From IMG/VR virus record IMGVR_UViG_3300031576_000288, positions 1 through 21,284 of that record: a stretch of DNA of 21,284 nt; one strand, 5' to 3'. Each line of letters opens with the position of its first letter. The stretch's first letter is position 1. The notes under the pieces were generated by a model. It ran no database searches, was not told where the DNA came from, and saw only the letters and a list, made by a program, of their open reading frames with translations. Positions 2,574 through 21,002 of the stretch are shown here, piece after piece. Both the position numbers and the translations under genes were made by a program. Source of the DNA: a virus.

Positions 2574-5390
2574 ATGCCGGAAGTGACCGAGCTCGCCGCC
2601 GAGATCAGTGTCGAGGGCGCCGGCCAAGCGTCCCGTGAGCTCGACGAGTTCGGCCGACGGATCGACCAGACCGGCCAGAAGCAGCAGCAAGCCTCGAAGC
2701 GCTCCGCCGACTACGACCGCAACCTCCAATCGCTCGCGCGCAGCTCGCTGGTTGTTGGTGGGGCGATGCTGGCGGGGTTCGGGTTCGCGGCGCACGCATC
2801 GATGGAGTTCGGCAAGGAGATCTCGACCGTCGGCGCAGTATCAGACGCGACGAACGCCGAGCTCGCGCAACTCTCCGACGCGGCGCTCGAAGCCGGGAAG
2901 AGCAGCCAGTTCGTCGGGATCACCGCCCGTGATGCTGCGCAGGCCGAAGGCGAGCTTGCCCGTGCCGGGATCTCGGTCGCCGACATCCTCGGCGGGGCGC
3001 TCACCGGCTCGCTCTCTCTCGCCAGCGCCGGCCAGCTCGACGTCGCGACCGCCGCGACAATCGCGGCGCAGGCCCTCAACATCTTCAACCTCGAAGGCGA
3101 CCAGACCGGCCACGTCGCAGACGTCCTCGCCGCCGCCGCGAACAAGTCCGCGGCGGATGTCGAGGGGCTCGGCAACGCGCTCCGCCAAGGTGGCCTGCAA
3201 GCGAAGCTGACCGGCCTGTCGCTCGAAGACACGATCGGTGCGCTCGCCCTCTTCGCCGACAACGCGCTGATCTCCGAGGACGCCGGCACGTCACTGAAGT
3301 CGATGCTGCAGCGCCTCACGCCGCAGTCGGCCGAAGCCGCGGCGCTGATGACCGAGCTTGGTCTCGAGGCGTACGACGCCCGCGGCCAGTTCATCGGCCT
3401 CGAGGACTGGGCCGGCAAGCTCCAGGCCGGACTCCAAGGGCTCAGCGAGGAGCAGCGCAACTCAGCGATCGCGACGATCTTCGGGACCGACGCGGGCCGT
3501 GCCGCGGCGCTCGTCTACGACGCCGGCTCGAAGGGCGTGCGGGATTACCGCGACGCTGTGAACGATGTCGGTGCGGCGCAGCGGATGGCCGCCGACATGA
3601 CCGACAATCTCGCCGGCGACTTCGAGCAGCTGCAAGGTTCGATCGAAGGTGCGCTCATCGCCGGCGGTACCCAAGCGAACGACGCGCTCCGAGCGCTCAC
3701 CCAGACCGCGACCGGGCTGGTGAACGCGTTCGCGGAAGCTCCCGGCTGGCTACAGCAGACCGGGGTCGGTCTCGCCGGTGTCGGCGGCTCCGCCCTCCTC
3801 CTGGTCGGCGTGCTCGGCACGATCATCCCGAAGGCCCGGCAGGCACGCCTCGCGCTCGCCGCGATGAGCGCCGGCCAGACCATCGCGCTCGCCGGCGTCG
3901 TCGCCGCGTTGACGGTCGGCGCGATCGCGATCGCGCGCTGGGCGCGCGAGAAGGAACAGGCCCGCCAACGCGCGAACGAGTTCACCGATGCGTTGCGGCT
4001 CGACTCGGGCGCGCTCGGCGAGAACACCCGGGCGCTGGTCAAGAACAGCCTGCAGGAGCAGGGCCGGCTCGACGACCTCGGCCGGCTCAAGGGCCACCTC
4101 GATTCCGGCCGGGCGGCGTTCGACGTGTTCACGGACGCGGTGGGCGGCAACACGAAGAGCCAGGCCGAGTTCCGTGCGGCGATGATCGCCTCCGGCGAGG
4201 TGACCGTCGAACCCCTGGGCCGGCTCAGGCTCACCGCCGAGCAGTTGCGTGTGCTGCAGGAAGAGTTCATCCGCACCGGCGAGACGCAGTTCCAGGTCGC
4301 CGGCGGCCAGCACGCGATGATCCGAGGCAACATCGGGCTGCTCAGCTCACTCGACAAGCAGACCGCCGCGCAGGCCGACGCCCGGGCCGCGTTCGAAGCG
4401 ACCTCGGACGCGCAACGCACCGCCGCTGATGTCGAACGCGACCTCATGTCCGTTCGACGCGAGGCTGAAGATCTGCAGGCTGCGGGGATCCGGTCGGGCC
4501 CGCGCTTCGAAGCGGTCCAACGGCGGCTCGCCGCCGCGCTGCGCGAGCAGCAGGACGTGCAGGCCGCCGGCGCCGGAGTCACCTCGGAGAGCGCCGACAG
4601 CTTCGAGGCGTTCGCCGAGAAGGTGGCCGAGGCCGAGAAGGCGATCGACGAATACCAAGACGCGCTCGACGCGCTGATCGGCGTCCCGGTCGACCTTGAG
4701 AAGGCGACGATCGGCTGGGGAGAGAGCCTCGCGGATCTGAACGAGCAGCTCTTCACCGCCGGCACGACCCTCGACATCCACACGACAGCCGGCCGCGAGA
4801 ACCGTGATGCGATCATCGAAATGGTCGAAGCAGCGAAGGACCACGCGAAAGCCGCCGCGGAGCAGTCCGGCAGCATCGAGGTCGGCAACGCGGTCCTCGC
4901 GGCGCACCGTGAGGAGCTGCTCGACACGCTGACCCAGTTCGGTCTCACCCGCGAGGCAGCAGAGGCCTACGTCAATCAGCTCGGGCTCGTTCCTCCGTCG
5001 ATCTCGACCGTGATCAACGTCACCGCGGACACCTCCGCGGCGATCGCGTCGCTCGCTGCCATCGGTGCCAAGGCGGTCGCGATCGCCGGCGACATCGTTG
5101 TGCTCCAAGGCCGCGAGGAAGGGAAACGGCCGGGCCGTGCGTCGGGCGGGCCGGTCAGCGCGGGCGAGACCTATCTCATCGGTGAACGTGGCCCGGAGCT
5201 GCTCGTGATGCCCGCCGGCGGCGGCGACGGCTACGTGCTCCCGAACGGTGCCGCGGCGGCGGTCGGCGGCGCTACGACCCAGCACTTCCACTTCGACAAG
5301 CTCGTCCTCCCGAACGTGCGGAACGCCCGTCAGCTCGTCGACGAACTGCGTGAGATCGAGCGCGAGTTCGGCTACTCGATCGTCGGCTGA
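2574..5390 (+). CDS. Tape measure protein
   Basis: At 938 residues this is the largest gene in the window. It starts at an ATG behind a near-perfect ribosome binding site (GGAGGTGAG, 2562-2570). Residues about 80-320 match the TP901-type tape-measure domain (FGKEISTVGAVSDATNAELA, then LRQGGLQAKLTGLSLEDT and TIFGTDAGRAA). Two hydrophobic segments follow (about 396-418 and 437-455), then a long Ala/Glu-rich helical region that should form the rod setting tail length. The C-terminus has the common tape-measure motif ASGGPVSAGETYLIGERGPE starting near 856. At roughly 0.15 nm per residue, a literature rule of thumb, the tail would be about 140 nm. The TGA overlaps the next ATG. Confidence 0.95.
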   Translation: MPEVTELAAEISVEGAGQASRELDEFGRRIDQTGQKQQQASKRSADYDRNLQSLARSSLVVGGAMLAGFGFAAHASMEFGKEISTVGAVSDATNAELAQLSDAALEAGKSSQFVGITARDAAQAEGELARAGISVADILGGALTGSLSLASAGQLDVATAATIAAQALNIFNLEGDQTGHVADVLAAAANKSAADVEGLGNALRQGGLQAKLTGLSLEDTIGALALFADNALISEDAGTSLKSMLQRLTPQSAEAAALMTELGLEAYDARGQFIGLEDWAGKLQAGLQGLSEEQRNSAIATIFGTDAGRAAALVYDAGSKGVRDYRDAVNDVGAAQRMAADMTDNLAGDFEQLQGSIEGALIAGGTQANDALRALTQTATGLVNAFAEAPGWLQQTGVGLAGVGGSALLLVGVLGTIIPKARQARLALAAMSAGQTIALAGVVAALTVGAIAIARWAREKEQARQRANEFTDALRLDSGALGENTRALVKNSLQEQGRLDDLGRLKGHLDSGRAAFDVFTDAVGGNTKSQAEFRAAMIASGEVTVEPLGRLRLTAEQLRVLQEEFIRTGETQFQVAGGQHAMIRGNIGLLSSLDKQTAAQADARAAFEATSDAQRTAADVERDLMSVRREAEDLQAAGIRSGPRFEAVQRRLAAALREQQDVQAAGAGVTSESADSFEAFAEKVAEAEKAIDEYQDALDALIGVPVDLEKATIGWGESLADLNEQLFTAGTTLDIHTTAGRENRDAIIEMVEAAKDHAKAAAEQSGSIEVGNAVLAAHREELLDTLTQFGLTREAAEAYVNQLGLVPPSISTVINVTADTSAAIASLAAIGAKAVAIAGDIVVLQGREEGKRPGRASGGPVSAGETYLIGERGPELLVMPAGGGDGYVLPNGAAAAVGGATTQHFHFDKLVLPNVRNARQLVDELREIEREFGYSIVG

Positions 5391-7708: not shown

Positions 7709-8095
7709 ATGGCTGCTGATCCGATCTTCATCGCCGCGCGCCGCACGCCGTTCGTGCAGGCCGTCACCGCGAACACGAACCGTGACGGGACCGGCACGAT
7801 CGCGACCGTTGTCACCGCGGGCACGAACGGGACGCGGATCGAGCGGGTGCGGGTGAAGGCGGTCGGCACGACCACCGTCGGCATGATCCGGCTCTACATC
7901 TCGGACGGCACGAACATCCGTCTGCTGCACGAGATCCCCGTCACCGCGATCACACCGTCGGGGACGGTCGAGAGCTTCGAGGCGGAGATCGTGTTCTCCG
8001 ACAATGAGCTGGTCCTCCAGACCGGCCATCTGCTCCGCGCGTCGACGCATGTCACCGAGACGTTCAATATCTTCTGCGAGGTAGGTGACTTCTGA
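7709..8095 (+). CDS. Small structural protein of the tail cluster, unknown role
   Basis: A 128-residue protein starting at an ATG preceded by AGGGGTGTGAG. It is strand-rich with conserved-looking turns (TNRDGTGTIATVVTAGTNGT, RIERVRVKAVGTTTVGMIRL, YISDGTNIRLLHEIPV, ELVLQTGHLLRASTHV). The pattern suggests a jelly-roll or beta-sandwich of the kind found as small head or tail decoration proteins. It sits just before the GH5-like gene and shares a one-base overlap with it (TGATG), so the two are likely made together. Its position makes a tail-fibre or adaptor role more likely than head decoration, but this is inference. Confidence 0.5.
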   Translation: MAADPIFIAARRTPFVQAVTANTNRDGTGTIATVVTAGTNGTRIERVRVKAVGTTTVGMIRLYISDGTNIRLLHEIPVTAITPSGTVESFEAEIVFSDNELVLQTGHLLRASTHVTETFNIFCEVGDF

Positions 8096-9969
8096 TGCCG
8101 ATCCCTTCGGAGCTGCTGCGTCAGATCCGCCGCGAGATCGCGCTCCACGCCGGCAACACCATCGTTGTCGACGGGATCCCCGACGACGCGAAGGTCCTCG
8201 CCGCGCAACCGCGGGTGCGGATGAATCTCGCGAACCCGGCGCTCGCACCGATGGCATGGTCGTCGAGCACCGGCTCGCTCTACGTCCGCCGTTTCGACGG
8301 GACGTGGGTGGTCCCGAACGTGTCGGGGACGGTGCCGGGCCCACCGAACCCGAACGTGTTCGAAACAGAAGGTGTCGACGCGTTCGTCGGCGTGAGCACC
8401 GACGCGGTCCCGGGGATCGTGCAAGGCACGGTCTACCGGCTCAACGGCGTGAACGACGCCCGCTCGCAGACCTCCGCGCCGCAGCAGGGCGCGCTCGACG
8501 ACATCAAGAACAAGGGCTACGACGCGGTCCGCAAGGTCCAGTACTGGAACGACTGGCAGCCGACCGCGACCGCGTCGCACTCGCCAGGGCAGGTCGAGCC
8601 GCTCGCACAGTCGATGATCGACGCGATGACCACGATGATCCAACGGTGCGAGATCGCCGACCTGTACATCATCCTCGACCCGCTCCACTGCGGCTACTAC
8701 AGCAACGACCCGGCGGACTATCCCGGCGGCCTCGCGGACGGGCATTTCCCCGGCGATGGGACACACCAGACGTTCCCTCTCTGGGTGTCGGGCACGAACC
8801 TGAACGCGACATCGTTGACGGGGATCGTATCGGTGGCCGGCTGGCTAGCGATGACGAAGAACGGGCACGGCCGGTCGAAGTGCGACACGCTCACGATGCC
8901 AGCCTCCGGCTCGCCGGGCGGGTTCACGAACGGCGCGCGGTACTGGCTGACGAACGTGGGGACGAACACGTTCGAGCTCGCGTCGAGCCTCGCGAACGCG
9001 ATCGCCGGGGTTTCGATCGCGGCGACGACGGCGGTCACCTACACGGGGACGATGCGGGTACCGGTCCCGCGTGCCGTCGCGAACGGTCATGTCGCGAACG
9101 GTGGCGACACGCTCGACTGGCTCGACCGTGACGGGGTGCAGTGGTGGCAGCAACTCGCCGCGCTCTACAAGGACCAGAAACGGGTCATCGCCTACGACCT
9201 GATCAACGAACCGAAGTTCACCGACGGGATCAACTACACCGGTTCGTCGTACGCGTACCGGGCACGGTTCTTCACCGTCATGGCGAAGCTCATCGCGGGG
9301 ATCCGTGCGGTCGACCCGTACAAGATCATTATGATCCCCTACGCCGCGGGCGGCTGGAACACGTTCGACACCGCGCTGATCACCCAGGCCGACGTCGACG
9401 TGATCAAGGCAGCGAACGGCGGCTCGTGGAAGAACATCGTCCTCACCTACCACGACTACTGGGCCGGCGCGCCCGCATCCGGGTCGGATACGACGACACC
9501 CTGGTCGGGCAGCGGCTTCACGACCGTCGGGAACTACACCTATAGCGCCGGCTCGGGCTACCCGGATTACGGCAACAACGCGGACCGGACGAAGAAGCAG
9601 ATCGACAACCTGCACGACACGCTCATGACGCAGGCCGCGAACATCGCGACCTTGGCGGGCGAGACGGGCGTCCCGATCCATATCGGCGAGGTCGGGTTCA
9701 ACAACCAGTTCGAGAGCACGTCGCCGACACAGAACGGCAAGACCGGCGTGCAGCAACGCGACCAGATCTGGGCCGACCGGCGCGTCACCTGCAACCGGAC
9801 GCCGGGCGGGATCTCGATCGTCGCATGGGAATTCTCGTCGGCGGGTGGCCTGAACCTCGCCGACGCCGCGCTCTCCCCCGACCAGATCCGTGCGTGGTGC
9901 GCGACAGCGTTCCCGGCCGCGGGGACCGAGACCGACAGTGGTGTGCGGCCGCCCGACAACAGCACCTGA
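8095..9969 (+). CDS. Tail-associated glycoside hydrolase, GH5-like, with beta-rich insert
   Basis: A 624-residue protein with the landmarks of a family 5 (clan A, cellulase-like) TIM barrel. The catalytic acid/base motif is VIAYDLINEP (E372 in NEP). HDYW (453-456) corresponds to the conserved His/Tyr strand, IHIGEVGF has the probable nucleophile E532, and AWEF (577-580) matches the late Trp strand. Residues 1-90 look like an attachment domain (GTWVVPNVSGTVPGPP). Residues about 240-320 form an insert inside the barrel, with CDTLTMPASGSPGGF and YWLTNVGTNTFELASS, a fold motif seen in phage tail proteins. Lying within the minor tail run, it probably degrades a host surface glycan during adsorption. 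The substrate cannot be read from sequence. Confidence 0.8.
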   Translation: MPIPSELLRQIRREIALHAGNTIVVDGIPDDAKVLAAQPRVRMNLANPALAPMAWSSSTGSLYVRRFDGTWVVPNVSGTVPGPPNPNVFETEGVDAFVGVSTDAVPGIVQGTVYRLNGVNDARSQTSAPQQGALDDIKNKGYDAVRKVQYWNDWQPTATASHSPGQVEPLAQSMIDAMTTMIQRCEIADLYIILDPLHCGYYSNDPADYPGGLADGHFPGDGTHQTFPLWVSGTNLNATSLTGIVSVAGWLAMTKNGHGRSKCDTLTMPASGSPGGFTNGARYWLTNVGTNTFELASSLANAIAGVSIAATTAVTYTGTMRVPVPRAVANGHVANGGDTLDWLDRDGVQWWQQLAALYKDQKRVIAYDLINEPKFTDGINYTGSSYAYRARFFTVMAKLIAGIRAVDPYKIIMIPYAAGGWNTFDTALITQADVDVIKAANGGSWKNIVLTYHDYWAGAPASGSDTTTPWSGSGFTTVGNYTYSAGSGYPDYGNNADRTKKQIDNLHDTLMTQAANIATLAGETGVPIHIGEVGFNNQFESTSPTQNGKTGVQQRDQIWADRRVTCNRTPGGISIVAWEFSSAGGLNLADAALSPDQIRAWCATAFPAAGTETDSGVRPPDNST

Positions 9970-10419: not shown

Positions 10420-10824
10420 GTGGGTGCGCTCACGGTCAGCGAGATCACGGGCCGTGTCGACGAGGCGGCCCGCGCGCTCGACACGTACGACCCACGGGCC
10501 CGCTGCTCGGCTCTCGCACCCGACCTCCCGCCGCCGGAGCTGCTCGAGCTACATCTCGCTGAGCCGGCGCACCACGTCCTCGTCGTCACCGACGCCGGGA
10601 CGCGTGTCGGGCTCGCGCTCGTGCGCGAGTCACGGATCCGCTGGCTGCTCGCCGACCGCGACCGCTATGTCGAAGTGGTGCAGGCGATCGTGCCGTGGGT
10701 CGTCGCCCGCTACGGCGAGTGTTGGGGGCAGGTCCACAATCCGGAGCTGCGCGCGCTGCTGCTCGAGGAGAGCACCGGCTATCGCGATAGTGGCGCGTAC
10801 CCGGATGAGGTGCGGTTCCCGTGA
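10420..10824 (+). CDS. Small protein with a possible GNAT-like fold
   Basis: A 134-residue protein starting at GTG, eight bases after the previous stop, with no clear ribosome binding site. Residues 51-125 run HHVLVVTDAGTRVGLALV, a helix ending IVPWVVARYGECWGQVHNPE, then LRALLLEESTGYRDSG. That order resembles the last strand-helix half of N-acetyltransferases, where a conserved Asn precedes a helix and a GF/GY element. The acetyl-CoA pyrophosphate loop (Q/RxxGxG/A) is not evident, so activity is doubtful. Phage virions sometimes carry GNAT-like proteins that serve structurally. The next gene starts in a GTGA overlap. The fold call is tentative. Confidence 0.45.
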   Translation: MGALTVSEITGRVDEAARALDTYDPRARCSALAPDLPPPELLELHLAEPAHHVLVVTDAGTRVGLALVRESRIRWLLADRDRYVEVVQAIVPWVVARYGECWGQVHNPELRALLLEESTGYRDSGAYPDEVRFP

Positions 10825-12092
10825 CCGACCTGAACATCTCGGTCCTGAACAACTCCAACGACGCCTACGAGGCCGACGACAACACCGGTTACTCCACCGC
10901 GTCGGGCGTCAACACGATCATCGCCGAAGCGTCGACGACCGCGAGCGTCCGCAAGAACGCGGCGATGCGCTTCGCCGGCGTGACCATCCAGCCGAAGGCC
11001 GTCATCCACACCGCCGTCGTCCGCATCAAGGTCCCCGCGAGCAAGACGACCGACGACCCCGAGCTCGACATCCTCGCCGAGGCCGCCGACAACCCCGCGA
11101 ACTTCGTCGACAACGCGGACGTGACCGGCCGGACCCGCGGCACCCAATCGGTCTCATGGTCCGCGACCGATATCGGGACGGGCGCGACCGTCGACTCGCC
11201 CGACATCAAGTCCGTGATCCAAGAGGTGATCGACCGGGCCGGTTGGGTCGGCGGCTTCGCGCTCGTCGTGTTCTTCGACGGGAAGAACGCGGCGAGCAAG
11301 ATCCTCGAGATCGCCGCGTTTCCGCATGCGACCGACCCGGAAGCGCAACTGCGGATCACCTACCTCGACCCGATCAGCCCGACGGGGATCGCGTCGAGTG
11401 AGGCGTTCGGTACCGGGTCGCTGCAACTGCAGATCCAGCCCGCAGGGATCGCGTCCGGCGAGCAGTTCGGTACTGCGTCGCTGCAACTCCAGATCCAGCC
11501 CACGGGGATTCCCAGCGCAGAAGCGCACGGCACCGGCTCGCTCCAGATCCAGGTGCAACCTGCGGGGATTCCCAGCGCGGAAGCGCACGGGACCGGCTCG
11601 TTGCAGATCCAGGTCGAGCCCGCCGGGATCGCAAGCCAAGAGGCATTCGGTACCGGCAGCGCACAGATCCAGGTGCAACCTGCGGGGATCCCAACCGGCG
11701 AAGCATTCGGTACCGCGAGCGCGCAACTGCAGATCCAGCCCGCGGGGATCCCCACGGCCGAGGCGTTCGGTACCGGGTCGCTGCAGCCGCAGGTCGCGCT
11801 CGCCGGCATCGCGACCGGCGAAGCGTTCGGGAGCCCGACGCTCATCGCGCTCGTCGCCCTCACCGGCATCCCTTCGGGGGAGGCGTTCGGGCTGCTGCAC
11901 GTCGCGCTCGTCACCCTCACCGGCATCCCCTCCGGCGAGGCGTTCGGGACGCTCACGATCGGCGGCACCGTCCGCAACCTCGGTCTCACCGTCGGCGCAC
12001 CCGTCACGAAGTGGTCGCCGTACGGGCCAGCCGCGAAATGGTCGCGTGCCGGCCCGACCGGGAAGTGGGCCGGCGGGCCGCCAACCGTCTGA
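10821..12092 (+). CDS. Tail protein with DNRLRE-like domain and ten tandem repeats
   Basis: A 423-residue protein with three parts. Residues 1-187 resemble the DNRLRE-type beta-sandwich of surface proteins: AAMRFAGVTIQPKAVI, a long mid-section, then the PDIKSVIQEVIDRAGW helix and a closing QLRITYLDP strand. Residues 189-385 hold ten repeats of about 20 residues with core GIPSGEAFGTxxLQ. Eight are full length, the ninth has 19 residues and the tenth is partial. The C-terminus has three 9-residue units that begin KWSPYGP, KWSRAGP and KWAGGPP. I infer a fibre-like or carbohydrate-binding tail component. The start GTG overlaps the previous stop. The repeat core also occurs once in the tail protein at 5390-6826, so the motif may be a shared assembly element. 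Confidence 0.7.
   Translation: MTDLNISVLNNSNDAYEADDNTGYSTASGVNTIIAEASTTASVRKNAAMRFAGVTIQPKAVIHTAVVRIKVPASKTTDDPELDILAEAADNPANFVDNADVTGRTRGTQSVSWSATDIGTGATVDSPDIKSVIQEVIDRAGWVGGFALVVFFDGKNAASKILEIAAFPHATDPEAQLRITYLDPISPTGIASSEAFGTGSLQLQIQPAGIASGEQFGTASLQLQIQPTGIPSAEAHGTGSLQIQVQPAGIPSAEAHGTGSLQIQVEPAGIASQEAFGTGSAQIQVQPAGIPTGEAFGTASAQLQIQPAGIPTAEAFGTGSLQPQVALAGIATGEAFGSPTLIALVALTGIPSGEAFGLLHVALVTLTGIPSGEAFGTLTIGGTVRNLGLTVGAPVTKWSPYGPAAKWSRAGPTGKWAGGPPTV
11385..11969 (+). repeat. Tandem 60-bp coding repeats (about ten units)
   Basis: Units begin at 11385 and every 60 bases through 11805, then at 11865 (57 bases) and 11922 (partial). They encode GI(A/P)SxEAFGTGSLQxQ-type units. The first seven are the closest to each other and often share the stretch GCGTTCGGTACCG, while the last three are more diverged. 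The reading frame is kept throughout. Such arrays can gain or lose units by slippage or recombination. Confidence 0.9.
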
Positions 12093-12106: not shown

Positions 12107-12418
12107 ATGTTGCGACTGCAACGCGATTCGCTCGAATACGTGCGTGTCCCGATCGCCGCGACCGAAGCCGGCACGACGGTGAACCCGACCGGCGATGCGG
12201 TCGCGCTCGCCGCACCCGCGGCCGGCCAGCCACCCGTCACCTACGTCGCGGGGAGCTGGGAAACCGCCACGATCAACGGTGTCACGACCTACTACGCGCG
12301 TGCCCTGTTCGGCACCGGCGGCCTCGACCTCGCGGTCGGGTTTTACGACCTCTACGTGAAGATCACCGACAGCCCTGAGATCCCCGTGATCCTCGCCGGC
12401 GGGCTGGAGATCTTCTGA
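12107..12418 (+). CDS. Baseplate/fibre-associated small protein
   Basis: A 103-residue protein. The frame is open further upstream, but the ATG at 12107 has a GCGAGG ribosome binding site at 12095-12100 and gives a sensible start (MLRLQRDSLEYVRVPIAAT). The pattern is a strand-rich N-terminus, GSWETATINGVTTYYARAL and then FYDLYVKITDSPEIPVILAG. It matches a common actinophage minor tail family in which the final ITDxPExPV strand is the most conserved part. It lies last in the tail block and its stop overlaps the endolysin start (TGATG). The role is likely structural. Confidence 0.6.
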   Translation: MLRLQRDSLEYVRVPIAATEAGTTVNPTGDAVALAAPAAGQPPVTYVAGSWETATINGVTTYYARALFGTGGLDLAVGFYDLYVKITDSPEIPVILAGGLEIF

Positions 12419-13152
12419 TGCTCGACCTCGACGCGATCCCGTTCCTCGAAGCACGCCACTATCGCGTCGGCCGGCGTGCACCGATCCGATTCCTCGTCAT
12501 CCACGACATGGAGTCGTCGGAGAAGGCCACGAGCGCGGAAGAGTGGCAGCAACGCACCCACACGCAAGACAAGGTCAGCTCGGTGCATTACGGCGTCGAC
12601 AACGACTCGATCTGTTGCGCGGTGTTCCCGACTGACGAGGCGTTCCACGCGGCGGGCGGGAACCGGGACACGATCGGGACCGAACATCCCGGTGTCGCAC
12701 GCCAGACCCGCGACGAATGGCTCGACACGTACGGGATCGCGATGTTGCGCCGTTCCGCCGCACTCCAAGCCGCGCTCTGCAAGCGGTTCGGGATCCCTGT
12801 ACGGCGTGCGACCGTCGCCGACTACGTCGCCGCGCAGAACGGCCAGCCGTTCGTCGGCGGGCTGCTCGGCCACATCGACATCACCGAAGCCGCCAAGATC
12901 CTCGGCCGCGCCCAGCACGGCCACTGGGACCCAGGACCCAACTTCCCGTGGGCCTACTTCATGGCGCTCGTCAGCGACGCCTACGACGAAGGAGACGAGA
13001 TGCTGAGCGACGACGACAAAAAGTGGATCGCGGCGACGATCGACAAGGCGATCGAGACGCACATCGGGCAGGTCGCGTCACCGTCGACAGCGAAGACCGT
13101 CTACGAAGCCGCCCGCGAAGCGATCCGCGACACCCCACCGAAGAGCACATGA
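12418..13152 (+). CDS. Endolysin, N-acetylmuramoyl-L-alanine amidase (Amidase_2)
   Basis: A 244-residue zinc amidase that should cut the bond between MurNAc and L-Ala in peptidoglycan at the end of infection. The Amidase_2/AmpD-type ligands are visible: H29 in FLVIHDME, H152 in GHIDIT and D171 in HWDPGPNFPW. The GTEH-PGV element (87-93) corresponds to the family's GIEH-type strand, with E89 a candidate catalytic residue. The C-terminal about 50 residues (from LSDDDKKWIAATIDKAIETH) are helical and could be a small cell-wall binding or oligomerisation segment. There is no signal peptide, so release should depend on a holin. Several small membrane-protein genes follow at once. Confidence 0.9.
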   Translation: MLDLDAIPFLEARHYRVGRRAPIRFLVIHDMESSEKATSAEEWQQRTHTQDKVSSVHYGVDNDSICCAVFPTDEAFHAAGGNRDTIGTEHPGVARQTRDEWLDTYGIAMLRRSAALQAALCKRFGIPVRRATVADYVAAQNGQPFVGGLLGHIDITEAAKILGRAQHGHWDPGPNFPWAYFMALVSDAYDEGDEMLSDDDKKWIAATIDKAIETHIGQVASPSTAKTVYEAAREAIRDTPPKST

Positions 13153-14249: not shown

Positions 14250-14429
14250 ATGCACCTCTACCTCGACGAGCGTGGACGGCTCTTCCGGCTCGATCCACTG
14301 CGCGGCTGGCTGCTCTGCGCGGGCCGGTACCGGTACACCGACCCGGATGCGCCGCCGGTAGAGGTCGGGCCGGGCGATGTCGAAGATGTGATCCTCGGTT
14401 GCGAACGGCTGCTCGGGAGTGCTACGTGA
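14250..14429 (+). CDS. Small hypothetical protein (59 aa)
   Basis: A short ORF, ATG at 14250 to TGA at 14427-14429, starting one base after the previous stop. It reads MHLYLDERGRLFRLDP, then a Trp/Leu/Cys-rich patch (RGWLLCAGRYRYTDP) and an acidic C-terminal helix (VEDVILGCERLLGSA). Its tight fit between two neighbours, with a four-base overlap downstream (GTGA), supports it being translated. I do not recognise a family. Confidence 0.5.
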   Translation: MHLYLDERGRLFRLDPLRGWLLCAGRYRYTDPDAPPVEVGPGDVEDVILGCERLLGSAT

Positions 14430-14554
14430 CCCGCCGGGCGCGACACCTCGTGATCTGTGCCGTCACGGTCGCCGGGGCGGTCTGCGCGGTCACCGGCTAC
14501 CTGACCGGGCAGCTCTACGAACGCCTCACCCACGGCCGACTCGAGCCACGATGA
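14426..14554 (+). CDS. Very small single-span membrane protein (42 aa)
   Basis: A GTG at 14426 overlaps the preceding stop, and the ORF runs to the TGA at 14552-14554, which itself overlaps the next ATG. The peptide has a basic start (MTRRARHLV), one hydrophobic span (about 8-27, LVICAVTVAGAVCAVTGYL) and a polar end (YERLTHGRLEPR). It is a plausible miniature lysis or membrane accessory protein. The call rests on the double four-base overlaps and the coherent membrane-span pattern. Confidence 0.45.
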   Translation: MTRRARHLVICAVTVAGAVCAVTGYLTGQLYERLTHGRLEPR

Positions 14555-15720
14555 GCGTGCCGGGTTCGTCGATCACCGCGAACGTCCTCGCCCAGAACCT
14601 CCTCACCGACGGGCCCGACCAGTACGCCGTGTTGATCACGAGCACCGGCCGGGTCCGTGTCGGCCGCCGCGCTGCGCGCGGTGAGTGGACCACGACCACG
14701 ATCCCCGCGACGATGCTCGGCCAGCCTGTTACCGGCGACGAACACTGCTACCCGACGCTCGCCTTGGATGACGACGGGTTCATCTTCGTCTGGGCGAACA
14801 TGCACGTCGACCCATACCGGTGCGTCCGATCGCTCCGGCCCCGCGACATCGGCGGCTGGAAGCAGGTGTCGCTCCCCGGCAAGTTCACCCGGAACACCTA
14901 CCCGGTCGTCGCGAAGCTCGCCGACGGGACGCTCTGGCTCCACCTCCGTGCCGGTGCGCTCGGCGGCCCAGGCCGCGGCGACAGTCACGTCTGGATGCGC
15001 CGCGACGGCCAATGGTGGTACTCCGGCAAGCTCTTCAAGGGTGTCAACGTCGCCGGCGGCAGCGGCCCTGCCGTCGACGACGCGACGAACTGGTCGGCGT
15101 ACCCGGTCCGGCCGCATGTTGAGCAGTCGGGCCGGGTGCATCTCGCGTGGTGCTGGCGCCGGTACGGCACCGACGAACCCGCCGGCGGTGACGCGTCACG
15201 GACGAACGAGCTGCTCTCCTACGCCTGGACCGACGACGGCGTCAACTGGCATGCGATCGACGGGACACCCCTCGCGCTGCCGATCGACCCGGTGGCCGAC
15301 ACGGCATGTCATACCGGCCTCGTGCTCGACCAGCTCGTCAACGGCGGCGGGATCACCCTCGACGACGCTGGCCTTCCGCACGTCGTGATCGGCCAGAACC
15401 CCTACCACCACGCATGGTGGGACGGCCAGCAGTGGGGCGCCGAGCAGATCGCGGATCCGCTCGGCGGTGTGAACCTCGCCGGCTTCGCCACCATCCACAA
15501 CGTCGACGGCAAGCTCTGGCTGCTCGTGACCCAGGTCCCCGCGCCACGCCGGCTCGTGCTCGTCGCACTCGACGGGAGCGAGGTGGTCGAGCTGGCGGTC
15601 CCGGGTGTCGAATGGTCGACCCACGCCGACCCTGGCGCCCTCTCCGGGCACGTCGAGGTGCTCGTCCCGGACGGCAACCAGTTCGAGACCGTCACCGTCG
15701 GGCTCCCCAGCCTCGTCTGA
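14551..15720 (+). CDS. BNR_4-type beta-propeller, polysaccharide lyase PL24/25-like
   Basis: A 389-residue protein. The frame opens earlier, but the ATG at 14551 overlaps the previous stop and gives a clean start. It has repeated propeller blades and reads like the BNR_4 family: GDEHCYPTLALDDDGFIFV, ANMHVDPYRCVRS, TYPVVAKLADGTLWLHLRAG, then WSAYP...GRVHLAW. Candidate catalytic residues are H65, H85, Y117 and R133. The H-H (20) and Y-R (16) spacings match what I remember for the catalytic set of ulvan lyases of PL24/PL25. No signal peptide is present. Lying behind the lysis cassette, it may be a virion glycan-binding or degrading protein. A non-enzymatic receptor-binding propeller is the main alternative. 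Confidence 0.65.
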   Translation: MSVPGSSITANVLAQNLLTDGPDQYAVLITSTGRVRVGRRAARGEWTTTTIPATMLGQPVTGDEHCYPTLALDDDGFIFVWANMHVDPYRCVRSLRPRDIGGWKQVSLPGKFTRNTYPVVAKLADGTLWLHLRAGALGGPGRGDSHVWMRRDGQWWYSGKLFKGVNVAGGSGPAVDDATNWSAYPVRPHVEQSGRVHLAWCWRRYGTDEPAGGDASRTNELLSYAWTDDGVNWHAIDGTPLALPIDPVADTACHTGLVLDQLVNGGGITLDDAGLPHVVIGQNPYHHAWWDGQQWGAEQIADPLGGVNLAGFATIHNVDGKLWLLVTQVPAPRRLVLVALDGSEVVELAVPGVEWSTHADPGALSGHVEVLVPDGNQFETVTVGLPSLV

Positions 15721-15786: not shown

Positions 15787-16347
15787 TTGACTCGTCGCGT
15801 CAGCATCACCCTCATCGCAATCCTGCTCGTTGTCTCGTGTGGTAGCCGCCCGGAAGGGCGGCCTTCGTCATTCCAGATCACCGCCACCGAACGCGCGGGC
15901 ACCGCCACCGAGGTGTCGATCTCGCCGTTGAGCAGCGCCCGCGACCGCGCCCTGTTCCACCGGTGGATCCAATACCAACTGGATCGCGCCGCCTTCCACC
16001 GGTGGGTGACATGGCAATGGGAGCACCGCAACCTCCCGCACCCATGCCGCGACGACGTCGAACGCGCGATCCGCAGAACATGGGCTGGCACCGGCGACGA
16101 GAACACGATGGTCGCGATCGCCTGGCGCGAATCAGCGTGCACACCGTGGGCCAGGAACCCCAACGGCGTCGACTCCGGCCTCTTCCAACTCTCGCTCCCA
16201 CTGCACGACGATCTGTTCTGGGCGGTCGGCTGCAACCCCGACACACAATGGGACGAACTCGGCTGCGGGGTGAAGGCTGCGAAGCAACTCTGGAACGGAT
16301 GTTCAATCGGTCCTTGGTCACCGCCGTACTACTGTCGACGACCATGA
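15787..16347 (+). CDS. Lipoprotein with lysozyme/transglycosylase-like domain
   Basis: A 186-residue protein starting at TTG. It has a basic, hydrophobic signal (MTRRVSITLIAILLVVSC) whose lipobox VVSC makes C18 the likely lipidated residue, so the protein should sit outside the membrane. After a Ser/Thr-rich linker come two similar helices (ALFHRWIQYQ and AFHRWVTWQW). A lysozyme-like core follows: AIAWRESACTPWARNP with probable catalytic E115, SGLFQL (130-135) and a final helix/loop AAKQLWNGCSIGPWSPPYY. Several Cys residues may pair. No clear ribosome binding site precedes the TTG, but later starts would lose the signal. Possible roles are secreted lysis aid, or a lysogeny surface factor acting on incoming phage. 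Confidence 0.65.
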   Translation: MTRRVSITLIAILLVVSCGSRPEGRPSSFQITATERAGTATEVSISPLSSARDRALFHRWIQYQLDRAAFHRWVTWQWEHRNLPHPCRDDVERAIRRTWAGTGDENTMVAIAWRESACTPWARNPNGVDSGLFQLSLPLHDDLFWAVGCNPDTQWDELGCGVKAAKQLWNGCSIGPWSPPYYCRRP

Positions 16348-17004: not shown

Positions 17005-18117
17005 ATGCGCGGCCATCTTCGCGAGCGCGGCAAGGACCGCTGGCAGCTCGCCGTCCACCTCGGCCACAACCGCTACGCCTACCGGACGATCCACGGCACC
17101 GAACGCCAAGCCGGCCGCGAGCTCGCGCGCATGATCGCCGACCTCGACACGCACGGCGCGACCCGCGGCCGCCCCACCTTCGCCCAAGTCGAAGCCGACT
17201 GGTGGGAGCTCCACGCACCACGCCTCGCACCCAACACCCGCCGCGGCTACCGCACCAAGCTCGACACGCACATCATCCCCGCCCTCGGCACGACCAAGAT
17301 CAACGCGGTGCGCACCGTCGACCTCGACCGGCTCTACCAACAGCTCGCCGCCGGCACCCGCGCCCGCAAGCCCCTCGCGCCCCGCACCATCCGCCAGATC
17401 CACGCCATCATCTCCGCGATCTGCTCGGCAGCCGTCCGGTGGGGCTACCTCACCCGCTCACCCGCCGACCATGCCGACCCGCCCAAGATCCCACCCTCCG
17501 AGCTCGCGCCGCCCGACGCGGCAGCCGTCCGGGCGCTACTCGCCGCCGCCAACACGCCCGGGCTCCGGCTCGCGATCCAGCTCGCCGTCGCGACCGGCGC
17601 CCGACGCGGCGAGATCTGCGCGCTGCGCTGGACCGACGTCGACCTCACGGCCGGCGAGCTCACGATCGCCCGGTCGATCACCCACCTCGACGACGGCAAG
17701 ACGATCAGCGAGAAGTCGACGAAGACCCACCAGTCGCGGACCGTCGCGCTCGACCCCACGACGATCGCCGCACTCGAGCAGTACCGCCGGACCCAGCGCG
17801 AAGCGTGGCTGCTCGCCGGCCACCCCTGGACCGCCGATCTCCACGTGCTCGCGACCGCGGCCGGTGAGCCGTGGCGGCCCGACCGGCTCACCCTCGCGTT
17901 CGAACGCGCGCGCAAACGGGCGAAGCACCCGACGGTCCGGTTCCATGATCTGCGCCACTTCCACGCGACCGAGCTCGCCGAAGCCGGCGTGCCGCTCACC
18001 GTGGTGCGGGACCGGCTCGGCCATCGTGATATCGCGACGACGGGGATCTACGCGCATGGCCGGCGTGATGGTGATCGTGCCGCGGCCGTGGCGATCGGCA
18101 AAATCCTCGCCGGCTAA
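17005..18117 (+). CDS. int: Tyrosine recombinase integrase
   Basis: A 370-residue phage integrase that should recombine attP with a host tRNA gene. Residues 1-50 form an AP2-like arm-binding domain (RGKDRWQLAVHLG...GTERQAGRELARMI). Residues about 57-145 form the SAM-like core-binding domain, and about 170-365 the catalytic domain. All catalytic residues are visible: R200 (ATGARRGEI), K240 (STKTHQSRTV), H314 and R317 (HDLRH), H340 (RLGHRDI) and nucleophile Y349 (TTGIYAHG). The length is usual and the gene looks intact. GAGGAA serves as ribosome binding site. It ends in a four-base convergent overlap with the minus-strand membrane gene at 18114. Confidence 0.95.
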   Translation: MRGHLRERGKDRWQLAVHLGHNRYAYRTIHGTERQAGRELARMIADLDTHGATRGRPTFAQVEADWWELHAPRLAPNTRRGYRTKLDTHIIPALGTTKINAVRTVDLDRLYQQLAAGTRARKPLAPRTIRQIHAIISAICSAAVRWGYLTRSPADHADPPKIPPSELAPPDAAAVRALLAAANTPGLRLAIQLAVATGARRGEICALRWTDVDLTAGELTIARSITHLDDGKTISEKSTKTHQSRTVALDPTTIAALEQYRRTQREAWLLAGHPWTADLHVLATAAGEPWRPDRLTLAFERARKRAKHPTVRFHDLRHFHATELAEAGVPLTVVRDRLGHRDIATTGIYAHGRRDGDRAAAVAIGKILAG

Positions 18118-18395
18118 CTCCGATCGTGCGTACGGTCGAGCATCAGGTCGAGCCGGCCGACGACCGTGCCCACGGCCGCGACGAGCAGCGAGATCATCAA
18201 GGGGATCAGCCCGGTTTGGGCGACGGCGACGAACTTCTGGCCGTCCGCGAGTTCATAGTCGCCGAGGTCGGACCAGGTCTGTACGGCGAGGATCGCGCTG
18301 ACAATGGCGCCGAGGAACCCGAGGATGATGAAGAAGCTTCCGGCGCTGGAGCTGGTGCGAGGTGTCGTCGTCGTCGTGGTGGTCTCGTCGGTCAT
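18114..18395 (-). CDS. Two-span membrane protein beside the integrase
   Basis: A 93-residue protein on the minus strand with an AGGAG ribosome binding site that overlaps the stop of the upstream minus gene, so the two are cotranslated. A polar N-terminus with seven consecutive Thr (MTDETTTTTTTPRTSS) is followed by two hydrophobic segments (about 20-39, SFFIILGFLGAIVSAILAVQ, and 60-80, LIPLMISLLVAAVGTVV). The tail is charged (RLDLMLDRTHDRS). No family is recognised. Genes expressed in the prophage state often sit between int and the repressor, so a membrane-based superinfection exclusion role is possible but unproven. Confidence 0.65.
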   Translation of the reverse strand: MTDETTTTTTTPRTSSSAGSFFIILGFLGAIVSAILAVQTWSDLGDYELADGQKFVAVAQTGLIPLMISLLVAAVGTVVGRLDLMLDRTHDRS

Positions 18396-18404
18396 GGGTT
18401 TCTC

Positions 18405-18788
18405 CTAGCAGAGCGTTTGTGTGGCGTCGATCAACGGTCCGATGCTGACGCGCAATCCACCGCCAGCGTCTTTCCAGATCGGAGTGATATCGGTGTAGCC
18501 GTCTTGCTTGGCGACACCGTTCAGCGCGTACTCGGTCCCGTCGACCTCCCACGTGACCGCGCCGCCGCTCCTGCAGTGCCCCTCGCCGCCGGTGGTGGTG
18601 AGCGGCCATTCTTCGTCGGCGTCGAAGAACGCGAGGGCCTCGTCGTAGCCGAGTGAGCCGCCCTCGTCGCTGTCATCGCTGCTCATTGCGCCGAACGCGA
18701 TCGACACCACGGCGACGACCACGACGAAGATCAGTACCGGCTTGAGGCACCCGCCACGCGACGGCGGGGGCTCGCTCGTGTCAGACAC
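18405..18788 (-). CDS. Membrane-anchored DUF2511-like protein
   Basis: A 127-residue minus-strand protein starting at GTG behind a strong GGAGGT site. A short polar N-terminus precedes one membrane span (about 16-34, KPVLIFVVVVAVVSIAFG) and an acidic linker. The exported domain runs EEWPLTTTGGEGHCRSGG, TYALNG-type DGTEYALNGVAKQDG, IWKD and IGPLIDATQTLC. The WPL...C...YALNG...C pattern matches what I know as DUF2511. C72 and C127 could form a disulfide outside the cell. The function of the family is unknown. It leads a two-gene minus operon between int and the repressor, a typical place for lysogeny-expressed cargo. Confidence 0.65.
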   Translation of the reverse strand: MSDTSEPPPSRGGCLKPVLIFVVVVAVVSIAFGAMSSDDSDEGGSLGYDEALAFFDADEEWPLTTTGGEGHCRSGGAVTWEVDGTEYALNGVAKQDGYTDITPIWKDAGGGLRVSIGPLIDATQTLC

Positions 18789-18876: not shown

Positions 18877-19053
18877 ATGAGGCGGATGCAGTTGGAACGA
18901 CGGATCACCGAGCTCGAGGGGCAGATCGCCGATCTCGCCGCGACGGTGCGGAACCTGGGCGTAGTTGCTATTGGCGTGCCGCGTCCCGCATATCACGATA
19001 GAGCCGCCGCAAGGTCTCGCGGTCGCGTTCGGAGAGTGCGTCGTCGACGTTGA
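18877..19053 (+). CDS. Small coiled-coil protein with Arg-rich tail
   Basis: A 58-residue ORF starting at the ATG at 18877, which follows GGGAAGGGG and a good promoter; the longer upstream frame has no such support. The N-terminal half is a clear heptad helix (MRRMQLERRITELEGQIADL, then AATVRN). The C-terminal half is basic and ends VRRVRRRR. The last 86 bases run antisense to the 3' end of the repressor gene, so the Arg-rich part may be a by-product of that overlap. It could dimerise and bind nucleic acid. I know of no homologue. Confidence 0.45.
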   Translation: MRRMQLERRITELEGQIADLAATVRNLGVVAIGVPRPAYHDRAAARSRGRVRRVRRRR

Positions 19054-19315
19054 TCGCTGCCTCGACGCTGAGCGCAGTTCCTGTGCGCATGAAGCCGAGC
19101 CGTGCCGAGATCTCGTTCCCGCGCAACTCGAGAGCGTCTTCGATGGCAAAGATGCGGGACGGACGGAGGGCGATCTGTCCGCTGGCCCACTGGCTGACGG
19201 CACCGATGTCGACGCCCAGTGCTGCGGCGATGATCTTCCGATTCTCGGCTGTCGCGTATGGCCGCAACGCCTCGCCGACGCGGCGGCGGTACTCGCTCTC
19301 GTCGCTCCTGCCCAT
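18968..19315 (-). CDS. Phage repressor-like HTH protein
   Basis: A 115-residue protein on the minus strand. The frame extends to 19546, but that extension runs through the operator region and the cro start. The ATG at 19313-19315 gives MGRSDESEYRRRVGEALRPY. The HTH is YATAENRKIIAAALGVDIGA, then VSQWASGQIALRPSR (about residues 20-54), where GVDIGAVSQWASG is the recognition part. A helical C-terminus (ALSERDRETLRRLYRDM) may dimerise. There is no peptidase-like cleavage domain, so induction would not be by LexA-type self-cleavage. It faces a Cro-like gene across three operator-like repeats, the standard lysis-lysogeny layout. A start further upstream, for example within 19380-19440, is an alternative. 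Confidence 0.7.
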   Translation of the reverse strand: MGRSDESEYRRRVGEALRPYATAENRKIIAAALGVDIGAVSQWASGQIALRPSRIFAIEDALELRGNEISARLGFMRTGTALSVEAAINVDDALSERDRETLRRLYRDMRDAARQ

Positions 19316-19400
19316 GCACCACCGGGGAGTGTGCTCGTCGTCGACTGCCGTGTCTACCTGGCGATATGAGACCTCAAGAGAACAGTAGTTCCACAGGTGT

Positions 19401-19450
19401 AAGTACTCGTCACTTCTCATAAGCATTGCTTGACAACCGTAAGTAATGCT
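19401..19450. promoter_or_regulatory. Three operator-like repeats, 20 bp apart
   Basis: AAGTACTCGT (19401), AAGCATTGCT (19421) and AAGTAATGCT (19441) are spaced exactly two helical turns apart. The middle copy is the perfect palindrome AAGCATTGCTT (19421-19431). ATAAGCATTGCTT and AAGTAATGCTTAT (19419-19431, 19441-19453) also form an inverted pair with one mismatch. They lie between the divergent repressor and Cro-like genes and overlap the rightward promoter, as phage operators do. Confidence 0.7.
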
Positions 19451-19458
19451 TATATCGT
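19430..19458 (+). promoter_or_regulatory. Rightward early promoter
   Basis: A perfect -35 (TTGACA, 19430-19435), a 17-bp spacer and a -10 with the key positions TA...T (TATCGT, 19453-19458). Two of the operator-like repeats overlap it. The predicted transcription start (about 19465-19467) coincides with the GTG at 19467. Confidence 0.65.
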
Positions 19459-19466
19459 GGGCCCTC

Positions 19467-19697
19467 GTGACTGCGGCGAAGACCCTGGGCATGCGGATCC
19501 GAGACCGGCGACGCGCCCTCTTCCTGACGCAGGCCGAGCTTGCCAAGATCTGCGTCGTTCACCAATCGGCCGTGAGCCAGTGGGAACGTGACGAGTCCGT
19601 CCCCTCGCTGCGGCTGCGTCCCGTACTGGCCGGCGCGCTGCACGTGTTCCCTCACGAGTTCTTCGACGACATCGAAGCCACCGAGGTCGCGTCGTGA
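19467..19697 (+). CDS. Cro-like HTH regulator
   Basis: A 76-residue XRE/HTH_3 protein. An ATG at 19446 is in frame but lies inside the promoter, so I prefer the GTG at 19467, which would make the mRNA leaderless; the ATG at 19491 is a further alternative. The fold reads MRIRDRRRALFLTQAELAKI, then CVVHQSAVSQWERDESVPSL and LRPVLAGALHV, where TQAELAK and QSAVSQWERD are the two helices of the HTH. It is divergent from the repressor and directed towards the early genes, as expected for Cro. The stop overlaps the next GTG (GTGA). Confidence 0.75.
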   Translation: MTAAKTLGMRIRDRRRALFLTQAELAKICVVHQSAVSQWERDESVPSLRLRPVLAGALHVFPHEFFDDIEATEVAS

Positions 19698-20005
19698 ACC
19701 CTGTGACGGTGCAGTGTCCGCCGCATTCGACTGACCGGCCGGATTGCGCGCCGACCACAACGACGCACCCGGAACCGACGAGCACCACGGTCATCGAGAC
19801 GACCACGCCGTCCATGCCGTCCTCGTCGACGATCAGCACCACGAGCCTCGACAACCCGACGACCACCAGCGCGCGCGTCGAGACAGCGACGACCGAACCC
19901 GTGCTGCCCGCGACCGGCAGCACCGACCTGTTCGGCACGCTCGGCCTGCTCGCGGTCATGGTGGGCGCGTCGTTGCTCGTGTGGGCACGACGGTGGACCC
20001 GATGA
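19694..20005 (+). CDS. LPxTG-type cell-wall sorting protein, copy 1
   Basis: A 103-residue protein. The GTG at 19694 overlaps the cro stop; GTG at 19703 matches the start of the second copy. The order is a conserved N-terminal block (VQCPPHSTDRPDCAP, two Cys ten apart), a Thr/Ser/Pro-rich stretch and a full sortase signal: LPATG, a hydrophobic segment (LFGTLGLLAVMVGASLLVWA) and the basic end RRWTR. No N-terminal signal peptide exists and none is available upstream in frame. Export is therefore unclear, and the C-terminal helix may simply anchor it in the membrane. It is a paralogue of 20685-21002. The location after cro makes it an early gene. Confidence 0.75.
   Translation: MNPVTVQCPPHSTDRPDCAPTTTTHPEPTSTTVIETTTPSMPSSSTISTTSLDNPTTTSARVETATTEPVLPATGSTDLFGTLGLLAVMVGASLLVWARRWTR
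19703..19756 (+). repeat. Conserved 54-bp block, copy 1 (N-terminus of LPxTG gene)
   Basis: Eighteen codons starting GTGACGGTGCAG match the block at 20685-20738. I count six differences, all at third positions and all synonymous. Confidence 0.8.
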
Positions 20006-20433
20006 CCGCCGCGCTCGACACGCCGCTGTTCGTCACCGTCCGCGAAGCAGCCCGACTGGTCGGCATCTCCCGCTCGCGCGCGTACGCGCTCGTGAACACC
20101 GGGGAGTGGCCCTCGACGAACGCGTGGGGCCGGCTGCTCATCCCGTACCGGTTCCTCGCGGAGCTCGCCGACCAGCTCACCGATTCTGCCGAATCGCGCG
20201 GCGCCCGCGCGCGCACCACACCTGCCGCCATAGCCGTTAGAGGCGTGGGCGTTGACACGGCCGGTGTGGTGCGCGGGCCGGCGGACGCGTCCAGCGCACC
20301 CAACCCCACCGCAGCCCCTTTTGCCGGAGGCACCGGTGGGCGTGTGCACAACCCGCCCCAGCAACGGTCGCCATCTACTCCGCCCGGTCGGCCGTCACCG
20401 GCGGGCACGAACGCCGGCCCAACCTCCTCCTGA
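20002..20433 (+). CDS. Excisionase-like HTH protein with disordered tail
   Basis: A 143-residue protein starting at an ATG in an ATGA overlap with the LPxTG gene; the longer upstream frame is a shadow. Residues 10-55 form a MerR/excisionase-type winged helix (HTH_17): FVTVREAARLVGISRSRAYA, then LVNTGEWPSTNAWGRLLIPY with the wing GRLLIP, and a helix LAELADQL. After about residue 60 the sequence is low-complexity, rich in Ala, Gly, Pro and Ser, probably disordered. It is the best candidate for the recombination directionality factor partner of the integrase, although a transcription regulator is equally compatible. Xis proteins are usually shorter than this. Confidence 0.65.
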   Translation: MTAALDTPLFVTVREAARLVGISRSRAYALVNTGEWPSTNAWGRLLIPYRFLAELADQLTDSAESRGARARTTPAAIAVRGVGVDTAGVVRGPADASSAPNPTAAPFAGGTGGRVHNPPQQRSPSTPPGRPSPAGTNAGPTSS

Positions 20434-20448
20434 AAGGCCTCGCCTGTC

Positions 20449-20688
20449 ATGCACGTTCTGATCCATGCCATCGACCTCACCGACGAGACGTCAGTCGTCG
20501 CGGTGAACCCTGAGCTTGTGGTTGTGAAGCTCGCCGAACGTCACGGTGTCTTGACGAGCGTGCACCTCCGGACTCGCGAGGACGCGTTGCGGCTCGGGAG
20601 CCTCTTCTTCGAGGCGATCACCGCGTTCGAACAAATCGCGGGCGATTGGTCGTCCCTGTGCCAGTCGGAACCCGAGGTGGTGTTGTGA
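20449..20688 (+). CDS. Small hypothetical protein between the two LPxTG genes
   Basis: A 79-residue protein starting at ATG 20449, 15 bases after the previous stop. GAAAGG at 20434-20439 may serve as ribosome binding site, though it is rather far. The N-terminal half is strand-rich (MHVLIHAIDL, SVVAVNPELVVVKLAE) and the C-terminal half one long helix (EDALRLGSLFFEAITAFEQI). It could be a compact alpha/beta fold. I recognise no family. The stop overlaps the GTG of the second LPxTG gene (GTGA), so it is translated with it. Confidence 0.55.
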   Translation: MHVLIHAIDLTDETSVVAVNPELVVVKLAERHGVLTSVHLRTREDALRLGSLFFEAITAFEQIAGDWSSLCQSEPEVVL

Positions 20689-20738
20689 CCGTGCAGTGTC
20701 CGCCGCATTCGACCGACCGGCCCGACTGCGCACCCACC
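20685..20738 (+). repeat. Conserved 54-bp block, copy 2 (N-terminus of LPxTG gene)
   Basis: The second copy of the 18-codon block at 19703-19756. The encoded residues are identical, while six third-position bases differ. Confidence 0.8.
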
Positions 20739-21002
20739 ACGACCACGACGACGCAACCGGAACCGACGACGACGGTGTCCGAGACGACGACCACCGTCGC
20801 CGAACAGACGACCACGACCGCAGCCGCGTCGACCACCACCGGCGACACCGTGATCGTCGCGACGACGAGCGTCGAAGTCCCCACGACCGCACCCGAACTC
20901 CCGATCACCGGCGCGTCGGATCTGCTCGGCACCCTCGCCCTCGTCGCGCTCGTGGCCGGTGCGGGCGTCCTCGCATGGGCACGACAGTGGGCACGACGAT
21001 GA
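20685..21002 (+). CDS. LPxTG-type cell-wall sorting protein, copy 2
   Basis: A 105-residue paralogue of 19694-20005. The GTG at 20685 overlaps the preceding stop; an in-frame upstream ATG at 20646 would only add residues that do not form a signal peptide. It carries the same N-terminal block (VQCPPHSTDRPDCAP), a longer Thr-rich stretch and LPITG. A hydrophobic segment (LLGTLALVALVAGAGVLAWA) and the basic end RQWARR follow. The two Cys in the block could pair or bind metal. The Thr-rich linker varies in length between copies, while the N-terminal block and sorting signal are kept, so those two parts are probably functional. Confidence 0.75.
   Translation: MTVQCPPHSTDRPDCAPTTTTTTQPEPTTTVSETTTTVAEQTTTTAAASTTTGDTVIVATTSVEVPTTAPELPITGASDLLGTLALVALVAGAGVLAWARQWARR

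Follow-up and report, generated by a model that had tools for sequence, protein, structure and literature searches.

Early region of the phage and its two LPxTG genes

The window, by which we mean the whole stretch of DNA analysed (21,284 nucleotides of IMG/VR record IMGVR_UViG_3300031576_000288), has at its right end the early region of an uncultured temperate phage, probably of an actinobacterium. Two small genes of this region, here called ORF1 and ORF2, encode proteins with a conserved N-terminal block, a Thr-rich stalk and a C-terminal LPxTG sorting signal, but without a signal peptide. The features of the region are as follows:

17005-18117, integrase
18971-19321, minus strand, HTH gene transcribed divergently, probably coding for a CI-like repressor of the switch (20.0 bits to HTH_3, below cut-off; E 3e-4 to a PHROG transcriptional repressor)
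19420, operator-like dyad TAAGCATTGCTT, overlapping the promoter at 19430-19458
19430-19458, plus strand, sigma-70-like promoter TTGACA-17-TATCGT, preceding the Cro-like gene and ORF1
19440, operator-like dyad TAAGTAATGCTTA, overlapping the same promoter
19446-19697, plus strand, Cro-like HTH regulator, with which the early operon opens (PF01381 HTH_3 34.4 bits; PHROG transcriptional repressor)
19694-20005, plus strand, ORF1, without signal peptide: conserved block, Thr-rich stalk, LPATG, helix, ARRWTR (103 aa, GTG start)
19706-19753, plus strand, conserved block TVQCPPHSTDRPDCAP of ORF1
20002-20433, plus strand, HTH_17/excisionase-like gene (HTH_17 24.4 bits, below cut-off; phrog_66 excisionase, E 0.0016)
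20449-20688, plus strand, gene for a 79-aa protein with no assigned function
20685-21002, plus strand, ORF2, without signal peptide: conserved block, Thr-rich stalk, LPITG, helix, ARQWARR (105 aa, GTG start)
20688-20735, plus strand, conserved block TVQCPPHSTDRPDCAP of ORF2

The stop of the Cro-like gene overlaps the start of ORF1 by the four bases GTGA, as does the stop of the 79-aa gene the start of ORF2, and the stop of ORF1 is in turn overlapped by the start of the HTH_17/excisionase-like gene. These 4-base overlaps at both ORF starts and both ends suggest one translationally coupled operon, in which ORF1 sits immediately after the Cro-like gene and the promoter of that gene. No tRNA hinting at an attachment site was found in the window or in the second phage described below.

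Two minus-strand genes lie next to the integrase gene. One (18114-18395) encodes a small hydrophobic protein opening with a Thr run, the other (18405-18788) a DUF2511/phrog_2950 protein whose N-terminus forms a hydrophobic anchor; both products are candidate lysogen-expressed membrane proteins. Glycosyl hydrolase family 5 (cellulase) and BNR_4 domains mark the virion-region proteins encoded at 8095-9969 and 14419-15720 as possible polysaccharide-degrading tail parts. In the ORF at 10821-12092, a repeat of the form GIPSAEAHGTGSLQIQVQPA recurs about twelve times, and a motif resembling it is also present close to where the ORF at 5390 begins.

Sorting signals and start sites

In agreement with the preliminary description of this DNA, both proteins end in a complete sorting signal composed of LPxTG, a hydrophobic helix and an Arg-rich tail. 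ORF1 scored 22.2 bits against PF00746 (LPXTG anchor), above the curated cut-off of 20, and ORF2 14.8 bits, below it; against TIGR01167, the scores were 17.0 and 14.3, respectively, versus a cut-off of 15.9. Over 19 residues, the hydropathy of the C-terminal helix is 2.1-2.2 (2.11 in ORF1 and 2.19 in ORF2). There is no hydrophobic segment near the N-terminus, and in 19-residue windows hydropathy stays below zero throughout the first 48 residues of both proteins. The only secondary structure in the AlphaFold prediction, which is of low confidence, is one helix at 75-104; the mean pLDDT of modelling on three sequences was 55.6, too poor for a fold search. The N-terminal block contains Cys, His and Cys, which are possible metal ligands, and host-clade surface stalks typically have Thr-rich acidic linkers of this kind.

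A GAGGT Shine-Dalgarno-like string lies at equal spacing before both starts, and the sequence context assigns the starts of ORF1 and ORF2 to this string together with the 4-base overlaps, and that of the third copy, described below, to an operator-like element abutting its ATG. From the starts of ORF1 and ORF2 to TVQCPPHSTDRPDCAP the distance is one to five codons. The earlier statement on how the two proteins begin needs a correction: the N-terminus of ORF1 reads VNPVTVQCPP, which makes it three codons longer there than ORF2.

The upstream reading frame is open in phase for 34 codons before ORF1 and for 57 before ORF2. No signal-peptide-like stretch was found in frame at or upstream of either start, and none was obvious in the other upstream frames. 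For the in-frame extensions to the previous stop, we used a crude test, a simple heuristic other than SignalP, in which a value of 1.8 or more counts as signal-peptide-like: no h-region behind a basic residue was detected for ORF1 and ORF2, and the extension of the third copy contains a weak one (0.5). By the same test, 35 of 39 LPxTG-type ORFs of actinobacterial genomes pass and all three phage copies fail. Of the four genomic ORFs that do not pass, one fell short by 0.01, and the rest look like unusual or misread frames. The signal peptide is absent in three independent start contexts, and an upstream in-frame signal peptide, which by the preliminary description would have refuted its claim, is not seen for ORF1 and ORF2, the third copy having only the weak stretch.

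A third copy and selection on the N-terminal block

A pattern scan of IMG/VR yielded a third homologue, in the 37-kb record IMGVR_UViG_3300031576_001299 (hereafter G002), with an identical block, LPATG, the helix and the end WARRRTV. Across the three copies, the motif reads LPATG (ORF1), LPITG (ORF2) and LPATG, such that LP, T and G are constant in all of them and adjacent residues vary. ORF2 is 70% identical to the third copy versus 59% to ORF1; being closer to the copy of another phage, it is not the product of a recent tandem duplication, so that the 'twin' genes of the preliminary description are not simple twins. The two phages are otherwise largely unrelated, and protein comparison identified only three genes in common, all envelope-related: the LPxTG protein, an Amidase_2 endolysin and an SLT-like lipoprotein. 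In the window, the latter two lie at 12418-13152 and at 15787-16347 (with a lipobox-like N-terminus, VVSC) and show 53% and 55% identity to G002; a search of the phylum for the shared SLT-like lipoprotein found nothing.

In G002, the start codon of the third copy directly follows a 21-base dyad element (GGGTACA-N7-TGTACCC in its best form), of which there are four plus-strand sites, at 8316, 16275, 19133 and 35638 (L009/L010). Two of these copies are identical, each abutting a start codon, the second preceding the ATG of a HerA/DUF87-like gene. The dyads probably function as operators of a phage regulator or as its leaderless promoters, and the one abutting the ATG of the third copy supports this start and places the gene under phage control.

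Beyond G002, no relative turned up. Block patterns run against the genome contigs of about 85,000 species, a search that depends on the block, gave none; nor did profile searches, which covered some 400 genomes from across the phylum and some 400 from a single class and in which those matches that were read were only Thr-rich LPxTG proteins or lipoproteins without the block, nor did the 14 genomes of the closest family. Neither tblastn against named phages and plasmids, in which low-complexity masking of the Thr-rich part limits sensitivity, nor comparison with PHROGs and named phage proteins (INPHARED), in which BLAST masks the same part, produced a match for ORF1 or ORF2. Looser DNA patterns of the block in viral and genome contigs returned chance hits only, among them L006/L007 (L007, when translated, is the other frame of a carboxyltransferase gene) and L019 (the opposite strand of a phage structural gene adjoining a terminase gene); in the last such scan, 22 of 23 matches were due to chance.

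The six synonymous third-position differences between ORF1 and ORF2 that had been noted before were confirmed, over the 16 codons of the block (T..AP). The three pairs of copies differ at 6, 7 and 5 sites of the block, in third positions only, which amounts to at least nine substitutions on the three-copy tree and zero at first or second positions. The chance of at least nine changes all being silent is p ~5e-6, on the assumption that about a quarter of changes are silent. Within the block, dN is 0 and dS 0.58-1.06, compared with a dN of 0.26-0.54 in the Thr-rich middle, which diverges as described earlier, and of about 0.33 in the anchor. Because dS elsewhere in the genes is similar to that of the block, recent gene conversion does not account for the block identity. 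This pattern of substitutions argues that the N-terminal block is under purifying selection, as the preliminary description had proposed at the protein level. An antisense frame that shares the wobble positions is open and conserved at 16 of 16 positions in the block, which is a geometric by-product and, by identity alone, inseparable from selection on the sense frame; the remaining evidence all points to the sense genes.

Membrane orientation, host sortase and possible role

In every copy, 1-2 basic and 7-8 acidic residues precede LPxTG and three Arg follow the helix, for which the positive-inside rule predicts an N-out orientation in all three cases, as sortase substrates have. The phage proteins share with LPXTG sortase substrates (PF00746, TIGR01167) the LPxTG, the hydrophobic helix, the Arg-rich end and the Thr-rich stalk, and their anchor is close to one from the likely host clade; however, they are very small, are encoded by phage early genes and lack the N-terminal signal peptide. 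Since the signal peptide is a defining feature of the canonical LPXTG substrates, ORF1 and ORF2 are not classified among them. Their sequence features are those of N-out tail-anchored proteins, as exemplified by SCO2900 of Streptomyces, a protein of about 110 aa with no signal sequence and with one helix at its C-terminus, after which comes a short basic end; its published tail begins with TG, resembling a sorting signal (PMC3087755). The N-terminus of SCO2900 is predicted to be outside and probably is by a protease test, in which it was more accessible than N-in controls (PMC3087755). The likeness to the phage proteins extends to the single helix, the lack of a signal sequence and charges predicting N-out, the last being prediction only. 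Unlike them, SCO2900 is chromosomal, conserved in actinomycetes and not reported as a sortase substrate, and no CPPHSTDRPDC block is mentioned in that paper (PMC3087755). Tat-integrated tail-anchored sortase substrates integrate into the membrane by the C-tail before attachment by sortase but carry a Tat signal peptide (PMC10924467). The earlier statement that no phage system of this kind is described stands, with no counterpart in PHROGs, INPHARED, plasmids or the literature searched that combines these features with a selected N-terminal block, but the topology itself has a precedent in SCO2900 (PMC3087755).

The first 3.2 kb of G002 contain bacterial-type genes, including one for a nitronate monooxygenase whose identity to its counterparts in two bacterial genomes is 89% and 86%, and are likely a provirus flank; the genes neighbouring the nitronate monooxygenase show no synteny between G002 and those two genomes. 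Sortase genes were found in 56 of 60 genomes of that class, the likely host class of the second phage. Among the relatives, the three with the homologues closest to the G002 flank gene have 3, 2 and 4 sortase copies, the nitronate monooxygenase pair having 3 and 2; all these counts concern bacteria related to the inferred host of the second phage. One genome of the pair encodes an LPxTG protein that bears a signal peptide and an anchor much like that of the phage proteins, e.g. ELPVTGSGSTPLGVLGFVVALVGVGLLALSRR. The bacterial protein encoded by a minus-strand ORF at L088 (G751:C94) starts with a signal peptide, followed by a Cys pair, a Thr linker and LPFTG; its layout is like that of the phage proteins except for the signal peptide and a Cys loop that differs.

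The reading that we favour, tentatively and with somewhat more doubt than conviction, is that these early, N-out, C-terminally anchored proteins use the host sortase to display the block on the cell surface. The following account of topology, cleavage, linkage to the wall, disulfide, partner and purpose is inferred. ORF1 and ORF2 would be expressed early in infection, and the lone C-terminal helix would insert so that the N-terminus lies outside while the Arg-rich end stays inside, the acidic Thr-rich tail of about 70 residues crossing the membrane without a signal peptide by YidC/Sec-assisted N-tail translocation. The host sortase would then cut LPxT|G and join the chain to the wall. The block, probably with a disulfide joining its two Cys, would come to lie at the free end of a flexible stalk and might bind one conserved partner there. 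The most likely use would be an early alteration of the infected cell's surface, perhaps for superinfection exclusion, a purpose suggested only by the early timing and the surface location. The membrane proteins with which phages exclude superinfection early are, like ORF1 and ORF2, small, early and membrane-associated; we know of none with a sorting signal. Counting against display, early, Cro-linked expression would not protect a lysogen, and the helix begins only after about 75 residues, a long tail compared with the limit of roughly 50 residues reported for Oxa1-type insertion in the ER (PMC7616256). In known cases, YidC does move acidic N-tails (PMC9360617).

Of the three explanations offered in the preliminary description, N-out insertion by the C-terminal helix fits best, given the charges and the retained LP and TG, and the other two, a cytoplasmic module and interference with sortase, are weaker. 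In a cytoplasmic tail-anchored module, the N-terminus would remain inside and the Cys-His-Cys block would be a tethered, membrane-proximal site for binding or for metal, acting for instance on the early regulator or the replication machinery; LPxTG would be a relic of a borrowed host anchor. The entire absence of a signal peptide, the possible metal ligands and the coupling of ORF1 and ORF2 to genes for DNA-binding regulators all agree with such a module, and most Streptomyces tail-anchored proteins are N-in (PMC3087755). We nevertheless consider it unlikely, in view of the strongly N-out charges of all three copies, the retention of LP, T and G where adjacent residues change, and a linker of the kind seen in host-clade surface stalks. 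Alternatively, the protein might be a decoy that occupies or saturates the host sortase, so that host surface proteins, such as receptors, are sorted wrongly while infection proceeds. The host clade depends on sortases, and a full sorting signal on a minimal protein, with two genes in one phage, would suit this role, but it leaves the strict conservation of the block beside a freely changing stalk without a reason, and we judge it quite improbable.

The proteins could also be relics of a secreted LPxTG protein after loss of its signal, or the signal could be supplied by a longer product from a missed start or a frameshift. Host-clade proteins of the L088 type show the same design with a signal peptide, and the open in-frame codons upstream of ORF1 and ORF2 leave room for an extension; however, no hydrophobic stretch behind a basic residue lies there (only the weak one in the third copy), the three independent start contexts agree, and the block, unlike a relic, is under selection, which makes this explanation improbable. 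Very improbable is selection of the conserved stretch in the antisense frame or at the DNA level instead of in the sense protein. The openness and full conservation of the antisense frame, which might be cited for it, follow from frame geometry; the sense ORFs have Shine-Dalgarno sites, operon coupling and a Pfam anchor, and changes at nine wobble positions speak against a DNA-binding site.

Returning to sortase-mediated display, the three sequences at hand may represent a phage-specific family that reaches the wall by a route independent of a signal peptide, in which the helix of the sorting signal exports an N-out stalk presenting a strictly conserved, Cys-bounded peptide on the infected cell, a proposal that we regard as possible and put forward with greater reserve than display itself. 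To our knowledge, no phage sortase substrate of this topology has been known before. If this is true, the family would offer, in minimal and natural form, a system in which an N-tail is exported to sortase. Sortase substrates are assumed to need an N-terminal signal peptide for export; if ORF1 and ORF2 are exported and anchored, a C-terminal helix alone would suffice to feed sortase, and these proteins, at about 100 residues, would constitute a minimal system for surface display as well as a novel class of phage proteins at the host surface.
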